The notes beneath the pieces are model-generated. The model saw only the letters and a list, made by a program, of their open reading frames with translations. It had not been told where the DNA came from and ran no database searches. This document shows, one piece after another, positions 135-7,022 of a stretch of DNA of 64,000 nt. Location: the IMG/VR virus record IMGVR_UViG_3300029448_004877, positions 1 through 64,000 of that record, one strand, 5' to 3'. The translations under genes and the position numbers were made by a program. Origin of the DNA: a virus. How positions within the stretch are numbered: the stretch's first letter is position 1; every line of letters begins with the position of its first letter.

Positions 135-452
135 TTACTCCTTTGGAAATCCTTCTTGAACATAAACGCCAACCAATCCTATTTGACCCTCAGTCAACAT
201 TTGTGCTTGACCATACATCAATGCAGACATTGGTCCACGCTGTTCTTTGTTTTTATACTGCAACAGAGCAGTAATGATATAATCAGCGTCTTTGCCTGCC
301 AAAGCTGGAAAAGTAGCAAGTCCCTCTCCCTGCTGTCCATGACAGCCAGCGCAAGTAGGCCAAACATCTCGAATACTTTCGAATCTATCTTCTGCTTGAA
401 CTTGCGATGCAGTCAAGAGTGAACATACTACTAGTAACGTTTTAAATTTCAT
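135..452 (-). CDS. Secreted single-heme cytochrome c (c4/c5-like)
   Basis: A 105-residue protein with an obvious Sec signal peptide (residues 1-20, basic start, hydrophobic core, V-Q-A cleavage site) followed by a class I cytochrome c domain. The heme-binding motif CAGCH is at residues 34-38. Met75 in R-G-P-M-S-A is the likely distal ligand, as in c4/c5-type domains. The mature protein of about 85 residues would be a periplasmic electron carrier, with heme attached by the host Ccm system. It is tightly coupled to the 40-residue gene upstream and the truncated gene downstream, so it is part of the phage operon rather than host contamination. A role in keeping host respiration running during infection is inference. 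Confidence 0.88.
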   Translation of the reverse strand: MKFKTLLVVCSLLTASQVQAEDRFESIRDVWPTCAGCHGQQGEGLATFPALAGKDADYIITALLQYKNKEQRGPMSALMYGQAQMLTEGQIGLVGVYVQEGFPKE

Positions 453-597: not shown

Positions 598-735
598 CTA
601 ACCTTGTCCTCTATATTTTTTATAACTTGCCTTCTTTGATTTATTCATAGAAGACATCTTTGGGTTACGTCCAATCGAAGTCTTCTTCGGTGTTCGGACG
701 TGTACTGTGCTAAACGCTTTAGCTCTTGTTGCCAT
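598..735 (-). CDS. Small basic conserved phage protein, 45 residues
   Basis: A very basic protein with a central T-P-K-K-T-S-I-G-R-N motif and a Y-K-K-Y-R-G-Q-G C-terminus. I recognise this arrangement from small conserved proteins of many T4-like phages. Its function is unknown to me; the charge suggests nucleic-acid or ribosome contact. A GGAG ribosome site sits 6 bases before the ATG. The leader upstream can fold into a four-way junction (separate entry), so expression may be controlled by RNA structure. Confidence 0.75.
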   Translation of the reverse strand: MATRAKAFSTVHVRTPKKTSIGRNPKMSSMNKSKKASYKKYRGQG

Positions 736-755
736 ATTGCTCTCCAATTACGGTA

Positions 756-852
756 TGGGCTGTTGAACACGCATGGATTCTGTTTCAACTTTTCCCTCAC
801 ACTAATCACGTGAGGATGGCGAATTACTTCTCCTTACGGCAGAAGTAGCCCA
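756..852 (-). promoter_or_regulatory. Four-way-junction RNA leader (candidate cis-regulatory element)
   Basis: Read on the minus strand, closing stem TGGGC/GCCCA encloses three hairpins in order. The first is TACTTCT/AGAAGTA, extended by CC-GTAA-GG with a GNRA-type tetraloop. The second is CCTCAC/GTGAGG and the third is GTTGAA/TTCAAC. All stems are perfectly complementary. The element ends 13 bases before the GGAG site of the downstream 45-residue gene. I could not match it to a riboswitch class I know. Its arms are too long for a tRNA. Confidence 0.55.
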
Positions 853-857
853 AATCT

Positions 858-1292
858 TTATTTTAATTCCATGTGAAAAGGAAAGCATTTCACAAACAGT
901 TCTTCCTCCATCTTAAAAGCTTCTTTTTCCCAAGGCTGGTTTTCATATTTATATCCACCAGCATTTCTCTTTTTCCACTTAAATGCGCCACCGTAACCAT
1001 GTGACAACTCTTTACGAAAGTACTGCTTCACGTGAACTAACTCATGAGCGAGTGTTTGCATCTGTTCCAAGAACGTCAGCTTTCTACCAGCCCATGATTT
1101 AGAAATTGTCACTTCAGCTACTTTATCAGTCCCGATACAATATCCTTGAACATCATCTTCGACCTTAGACTTGAAATCAATGATTACAGTCTTAGTGGTC
1201 ATACGATGCAATTTAAGATGACGTAAACAGTTTATAATATACTGCTCAACAACATCTTTGTTTTTGCACTTTCCAGTGATATAAAAGATCAT
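858..1292 (-). CDS. Zinc metallopeptidase-like protein (SprT/DUF45-like)
   Basis: A 144-residue protein with HELVH at 83-87 giving two zinc-ligand histidines and the catalytic Glu84. The downstream Q-P-W-E-K-E-A-F segment (119-126) has the acidic residues expected to supply the third ligand in SprT-like proteases. No signal peptide or membrane segment, so it is cytoplasmic. Its start overlaps the end of the upstream membrane-protein gene by four bases (ATGA), indicating coupled translation. The substrate cannot be told from sequence. A small SprT-like protease might clear DNA-bound proteins, but that is inference. Confidence 0.8.
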   Translation of the reverse strand: MIFYITGKCKNKDVVEQYIINCLRHLKLHRMTTKTVIIDFKSKVEDDVQGYCIGTDKVAEVTISKSWAGRKLTFLEQMQTLAHELVHVKQYFRKELSHGYGGAFKWKKRNAGGYKYENQPWEKEAFKMEEELFVKCFPFHMELK

Positions 1293-6213: not shown

Positions 6214-6221
6214 TATAAATA
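6214..6221 (+). promoter_or_regulatory. T4-type late promoter for the lipase gene
   Basis: A perfect TATAAATA on the plus strand, 34 bases before the lipase ATG, with the expected start about 6 bases downstream and GAGG before the ATG. Together with gp55 and gp45 in this genome it indicates late expression. Confidence 0.8.
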
Positions 6222-6254: not shown

Positions 6255-7022
6255 ATGGCACCTATCACCGAACTATCATTCATTGAAAAATCAGCACTGT
6301 TTGCTAGGCTATCAGCAGTTGCATATTTAGAGCCAAGTGAGGCAAAGAAGTCTGCTAGATCATTAGGATTTACAACTACAGAGTTTTATAATCGTGATGG
6401 CGCTCAAGCATATAGATTTCAAAACAAACACGACTTAGTGATTGCGTGTCGAGGAACTCAGCCAGCAGAATTTGGAGACATTAAAGCAGACCTTCAGGCA
6501 ATGCCAGTTGTAGCAGAAACAATCTCACGTGTCCATCGTGGATTTAAGAAAGAAGTTGATGATATTTGGCCTATGATATGCGAAGATATAGACAGAAAGT
6601 CGAATCTTAATCGTAGACTTTGGTTCTGTGGACACTCTTTAGGTGCGGCAATGGCTACTATTATGGCAAGTCGATGCAAGCATGAAGAAAAGTTAAATGA
6701 TCCAGTAATGTTATTCACTTACGGATCCCCTAGAGTTGGCTGGAAAGGATATTGTAACAGCTTAGGCGTTGTTCATCATCGTTGGAGAAACAATAATGAT
6801 ATCGTAACAACAGTTCCTCTAATGTTAATGGGATACACTCATCATGGAGAACAACATTACATCAATGCATATGGACAAGTTAGAAATCTTACAGGATGGC
6901 AGAGAGTAAAAGATAAGTTACGTGGTATTTGGATGGGATTAAAGCGAGGCAATATTGACTCATTTTCAGATCATGATATTGGTGCTTACATTAAACATAT
7001 CGAAGATCACGTAGGATCATAA
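6255..7022 (+). CDS. Class 3 lipase-like alpha/beta hydrolase
   Basis: A 255-residue protein and the only plus-strand gene of the window. It has I-A-C-R-G-T-Q (64-69) forming the usual oxyanion strand of class 3 lipases. The nucleophile elbow G-H-S128-L-G-A-A is at 126-132. D182 in N-N-D-I-V-T-T-V-P and H197 in Y-T-H-H-G complete a plausible catalytic triad. There is no signal peptide. The perfect late promoter upstream suggests a role late in infection, such as membrane breakdown at lysis or a virion-associated esterase. The substrate is unknown. Its end overlaps the convergent SET gene by 16 bases. Confidence 0.86.
   Translation: MAPITELSFIEKSALFARLSAVAYLEPSEAKKSARSLGFTTTEFYNRDGAQAYRFQNKHDLVIACRGTQPAEFGDIKADLQAMPVVAETISRVHRGFKKEVDDIWPMICEDIDRKSNLNRRLWFCGHSLGAAMATIMASRCKHEEKLNDPVMLFTYGSPRVGWKGYCNSLGVVHHRWRNNNDIVTTVPLMLMGYTHHGEQHYINAYGQVRNLTGWQRVKDKLRGIWMGLKRGNIDSFSDHDIGAYIKHIEDHVGS

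Follow-up and report, generated by a model that had tools for sequence, protein, structure and literature searches.

A conserved four-way-junction RNA preceding a small basic protein gene in a lineage of uncultured marine T4-like phages

The locus and the anatomy of the RNA

The window (the whole stretch of DNA analysed, 64 kb) comes from an IMG/VR virus record of 71,861 bases. Its ORFs, whose translations were read by eye, include RNR, thymidylate synthase, DNA polymerase, gp46/47-like proteins, major capsid, portal and tail sheath, and the capsid shares 68% identity with that of Sinorhizobium phage phiM12 and 67% with that of Methylophilales phage Melnitz (tblastn), which identifies the virus as a T4-like myovirus. 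On the minus strand, a four-way-junction RNA (852-756) lies between an SprT-like ORF and bp45, which codes for a small basic protein, and tRNA genes are found on the same strand 1.6-2.7 kb upstream. The features around the RNA are the following:

858-1292, minus strand: SprT-like ORF of 144 aa, upstream of the RNA (PHROG 10499, 3e-16)
946-953, minus strand: TATAAATA, a late promoter of T4 type within the SprT-like ORF, present in 9 of 9 contigs
741-745, minus strand: Shine-Dalgarno sequence GGAGA of bp45, read from the sequence
598-735, minus strand: bp45 coding sequence including the stop, for a 45-aa basic protein (phrog_17967, function not assigned)

The SprT-like ORF matches the Pfam SprT-like family with an E-value of 0.004, short of the cut-off, and the RNA begins a few nucleotides past its stop codon (858-860); the bp45 AUG is located at 735-733. 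Two other genes of the window deserve mention. Two genes past bp45, positions 135-452 (minus strand) code for a 105-aa protein with a signal-like N-terminus and a CAGCH haem motif, which scores 25.6 bits against Pfam Cytochrom_C, exceeding the cut-off; this phage-borne cytochrome c is possibly an auxiliary metabolic gene. At 6255-7022 (plus strand), an ORF with a GHSLG lipase-like motif runs on the strand opposite to that of its neighbours and has its own TATAAATA at 6214.

The RNA itself is composed, in 5' to 3' order, of these elements:

752-854, minus strand: full extent of the covariance model R1 (103 nt), 119.5 bits in cmsearch
847-852, minus strand: 5' strand of P1, TGGGCT, pairing with 756-761 and invariant in 8 of 8 sequences
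827-845, minus strand: P2 hairpin, CTTCT-G-CC-GTAA-GG-AGAAG, with its GNRA loop at 837-834 and a bulged G at 840
818-821, minus strand: conserved CGCC within the joining strand between P2 and P3, of which CGC is invariant in 8 of 8
795-815, minus strand: P3 hairpin, CCTCAC...GTGAGG, with a variable loop and one compensatory change (C-G to U-A, in L107)
790-794, minus strand: joining strand between P3 and P4, GAAAA, invariant
762-789, minus strand: P4 hairpin, GTTGAA...TTCAAC, of 6 bp with one A-U to G-U change, and conserved ACA and GCGTG on either side of a variable loop
756-761, minus strand: 3' strand of P1, AGCCCA, pairing with 847-852

P1 (852-847/761-756) and P3 (815-810/800-795) are helices of 6 bp, and so is P4 (789-784/767-762), which RNAalifold extends by CA/UG past a bulged A to 8 bp; P2 has 7 bp interrupted by the single bulged G, and no unpaired base separates P1 from P4. 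A pseudoknot of CGC (821-819) with GCG (772-770) is possible in all eight sequences, neither side of which ever varies. In sequence and stems this is, on the minus strand, the four-way-junction leader that a sequence-only reading of the DNA had described, although the closing stem, given there as TGGGC/GCCCA, is actually one pair longer (6 bp), and among the three hairpins of 6-7 bp, all present and one with the GTAA loop, P2 is not strictly perfect owing to its bulge. The same reading placed the RNA just before the ribosome site of a basic phage protein with 45 residues; the end of P1 is indeed 18-20 nt from the bp45 AUG in 8 of 8 copies, with a variable intervening sequence.

Conservation, covariation and distribution

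The fold had been judged unlikely to form by chance, which holds for the 97-nt element alone (z -2.9; 5 of 1000 shuffles fold equally well, and 2 of 1000 form a four-way junction with every stem of at least 5 bp) but much less for the 117-nt interval 741-857, whose z is just -1.9 (9 of 200 shuffles as good), a value that would suit a chance fold or a coding sequence with no functional RNA. Across the eight homologues z ranges from -2.8 to -4.7, and 6 of 8000 shuffles give a four-way junction with stems of at least 5 bp. The minimum-energy fold is the same junction for each of the eight sequences taken singly, and RNAalifold of the alignment agrees. The decisive evidence for a structured RNA, above the folding z, is comparative.

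Homologues were searched in viral contigs (IMG/VR) with bp45, the SprT-like protein and DNA patterns as queries, and seven further distinct ones were found, each in the same SprT/bp45 slot and one per record (cmsearch also finds one R1 copy in the 71,861-base record). The comparative base is formed by these eight sequences in two clades, clade 1 (the window, L081, L082, L083 and L084) and clade 2 (L107, L108 and L109). In their alignment 192 of 192 pair cells hold standard pairs (95% in shuffles), five pairs are changed on both sides (a number reached by 2 of 500 shuffles), and the covariation score is 0.186 versus 0.087 in shuffled alignments (0 of 500). Compensatory changes, whose absence from homologous leaders the sequence-only reading had named as grounds for giving up its claim, are present in P2, where the alignment shows 4 such pairs and alignment by hand adds to them, and in P3 (1 pair). 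The P2 stem is CTTCT-CC/GG-AGAAG in clade 1, TTTCATC/GATGAGA in L107, and TTTAACA with TGTTAGA or TGTTAAA in L108 and L109; it is therefore almost wholly replaced across clades, and its 7 bp and GUAA/GCAA cap are retained in 8 of 8. That height and a GNRA cap are kept through replacement of the stem argues strongly for a hairpin of RNA in which both matter, and they probably serve docking of the GNRA loop within the RNA. P1 is invariant and P4 almost so, with compensatory changes in neither; because of this near-invariance, both rest on folding and conservation, not on covariation.

Wobble pairs (U-G or G-U) in P2 of L107 and L108 and in P4 of L082, the plus-strand equivalent of which would be A-C, establish the minus strand as the functional one. 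The unpaired CGC, GAAAA, ACA, GCGUG and AUAC are invariant, and the P3 and P4 loops differ in both sequence and length, with four-base indels that rule out a reading frame through the element. A chance fold or coding sequence is contradicted by the covariation and, given also the common fold in 8 of 8 and these frame-breaking indels, is extremely improbable. Between clades the RNA is 75% identical, versus 63-69% for the flanking genes. Such conservation above the flanks, together with the tRNA genes upstream on the same strand, could be expected of a small RNA that is excised from the late message and acts in trans on its own, such as one that titrates a host protein, but the constant slot and the fixed distance to the bp45 start point to a function in cis, no promoter or terminator of its own was seen for the element, and we consider a trans-acting RNA improbable.

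R1 found no further convincing copy on the homologue records and the other searched loci, where the best other hits had E-values of at least 0.1. Since each pattern used to scan the viral contigs held some of the conserved core, divergent copies may have escaped these scans; those by protein do not depend on the RNA sequence, and all the RNA-bearing loci of this SprT clade that they recovered have identical invariant P1 and P4. In the search for a host or wider origin, an exact pattern gave 83 matches over genome contigs, about the chance number and none with the RNA, R1 gave no match over 385 genomes of one class (with stricter filters that may lose weak ones), and the RNA was found in neither plasmids nor phage records. 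In one more contig of this SprT clade, the ninth (L085/L335), just 10 nt separate the SprT stop from the bp45 start and the RNA is cleanly missing, so the element is dispensable and has been gained or lost as a unit; since this contig keeps the SprT-like gene, the late promoter and bp45, expression of bp45 does not require the RNA. In L108 (=L337) an in-frame TAG, possibly a sequencing error, lies within the SprT-like gene, and promoter, RNA and bp45 are kept.

The predicted late message and the control of bp45

The nine SprT-like genes contain 54 degenerate codons with an invariant amino acid, of which 8 are also invariant in nucleotide sequence, and five of these 8 are the consecutive GGT GGA TAT AAA TAT at the TATAAATA site. 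We read this frozen site (953-946) as a conserved late promoter, which would place the RNA within a leader of about 200 nt. The minus strand has 15 copies of TATAAATA versus 3 expected, several of them standing directly 5' of late genes (e.g., capsid and tail sheath). Other T4-like relatives of bp45 carry TATAAATA or AATAAATA 24-77 nt 5' of the start, which gives bp45 the look of a late gene. Probably, then, the RNA serves as the 5' leader of a late message for bp45, a transcript predicted from the DNA. Beside the RNA, the SprT-like gene (861-1292) codes for F-P-F near its C-terminus, with two Phe TTT codons invariant in 9 of 9; weak pairing with the Shine-Dalgarno sequence is a possible explanation for these frozen codons.

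No intrinsic terminator (GC-rich stem plus T run) is found between the late promoter and bp45. An intercistronic site of this kind, occupied by a rigid fold (z about -3 to -4.7), might contribute to mRNA stability or processing, the fold either shielding the late message in its 5' part or splitting the SprT and bp45 messages. We regard this as unlikely, as a mere stabiliser would need neither invariant joining strands nor a GNRA loop at fixed height nor a fixed spacing of 18-20 nt.

The bp45 protein is strongly basic, and AlphaFold predicts with confidence a helix, itself basic, at residues 32-41 alone (pLDDT about 88; remainder low). A basic protein encoded directly after the RNA in all eight copies could bind its own leader and repress its own translation as T4 gp32 does, autogenous leaders being known in T4 (PMC3014915). 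However, the bp45 family is widespread, being common in Pelagibacter phages, present in the Methylophilales phage Melnitz (adjoining PhoH) and found more weakly in cyanophages, and in most relatives the gene overlaps the one upstream and is without a leader, so that the family overall, like L085/L335, does not need the RNA. Moreover, the two clades diverge in the N-terminal half of bp45, whereas the RNA core is constant, and L335 combines a clade-2-like bp45 with no RNA. Autoregulation is therefore a doubtful, if conceivable, explanation. A leader general to the bp45 family was rejected, given the overlap with the upstream gene in most relatives. In an unrelated phage (L045 2828-2946, plus strand; also L046 and L048) a bp45 relative follows a 119-nt leader with a predicted multi-branched fold (z about -3), unlike the window's RNA in sequence and without an Rfam match; its copies are near-identical. 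Permuted tmRNA genes lie near bp45 relatives in other phages (L052 2083-2420, L054 2043-2381 and L063 2400-2752), as is also reported for phage Melnitz.

Helices that covary or are invariant, invariant joining strands and freely varying hairpin loops give the RNA the appearance of an aptamer. It could be an orphan riboswitch that gates bp45 translation when its junction is occupied by a small molecule from the infected cell, in keeping with the glutamine riboswitches of marine T4-like phages (PMC9004378), but bp45 has no evident metabolic role, our searches found no copy outside the lineage whereas riboswitch classes are usually spread over cellular genomes, and no conserved alternative fold or switching partner was found, all of which makes this reading unlikely. 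Neither type of riboswitch expression platform, terminator or Shine-Dalgarno sequestration, was found at the locus. The consensus fold had suggested that the Shine-Dalgarno sequence pairs with a pyrimidine tract in the 3' end of the SprT-like gene; this was rejected, because the duplex energies do not surpass those of synonymous recoding (Fisher p 0.2) and clade 2 has none of this pairing. The more specific proposal of a new-class, riboswitch-like aptamer, confined to one T4-like lineage, sensing some molecule present during infection in the cell and gating a late basic protein from a family common across marine phages, is rather unlikely.

Control of bp45, by way of a switch or a binding site not described before, is the probable role of the RNA. 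Given the 30S footprint, the spacing of 18-20 nt from the end of P1 to the AUG would put the junction at the upstream edge of the initiating ribosome. With this spacing, no terminator and no sequestration of the Shine-Dalgarno sequence, a leader acting through its bound state is preferred. Transcription would start at the late promoter within the SprT-like gene, about 200 nt 5' of the bp45 AUG, and the leader would fold with P1 abutting P4 and P2 offering its GNRA loop for docking. The joining strands CGCC and GAAAA may form, with the bulge and loop of P4 (ACA, GCGUG), a pocket or surface for a candidate ligand, a phage or host protein more likely than a metabolite. The bound state would help or hinder 30S access to the Shine-Dalgarno sequence just 3' of P1, tuning bp45 synthesis late in infection. 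To this cis-acting leader, in which putative ligand or protein binding changes 30S access, we give about even weight.

Structured regulatory RNAs known from the late genes of phages are, to our knowledge, few. The present RNA is clear and testable in its anatomy, is missing from Rfam and precedes a gene whose relatives turn up in Pelagibacter phages, Methylophilales phages and cyanophages; its binder, once found, would provide a first handle on bp45 and on late translation control in T4-like phages of uncultured bacteria.

Relation to known RNAs

No Rfam 15 family matched the whole window at the gathering threshold, which bears out the earlier statement that no known class is recognised, and permissive mode on the window and the divergent homologue L109 gave chance-level E-values (3.8-7.4). 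A search of open papers found no description of the four-way-junction element. It shares with structured cis-regulatory leaders a structure backed by compensatory changes and a constant place before one gene family, bp45, on the same strand, in 8 of 8 copies. The element is a new RNA family of a kind already known, the structured phage leaders, with a mechanism that can be proposed as above.

The gene 32 leader of T4 is an autogenous translational operator restricted to some T4-like phages, RB49 being without it (PMC3014915). It is, as the window's RNA probably is too, a structured 5' leader in a subset of T4-like phages, and the product of gene 32 is a nucleic-acid-binding protein, but the T4 operator consists of a pseudoknot and an A/U-rich unstructured tract, whereas the window's RNA is a four-way junction before a different gene; gp32 binding is proven for the former, and any binder of the latter is putative. 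Glutamine riboswitches of the glnA type occur in marine T4-like phages (Melnitz, Mosig; PMC9004378) and are likewise structured cis-RNAs, although they precede a different gene and the window's RNA has no Rfam glnA match. No feature that defines the gene 32 operator or the glutamine riboswitch is demonstrable in the window's RNA. The Rfam RNAs wcaG, manA and PhotoRC-II of T4-like cyanophages (PMC9964418) are, like it, candidate leaders from comparative genomics in related phages, but it matches none of them by sequence or model. A tRNA or tmRNA is ruled out, as ARAGORN and Rfam find none. Although the element is without a T-arm consensus and differs from the tRNA cloverleaf in the strand of about 10-12 nt between arms 2 and 3 and in its variable third loop, it resembles the cloverleaf in its four-way junction, in the stacking of the first arm on the last without a base in between, and in the 5-nt strand that links arms 3 and 4.
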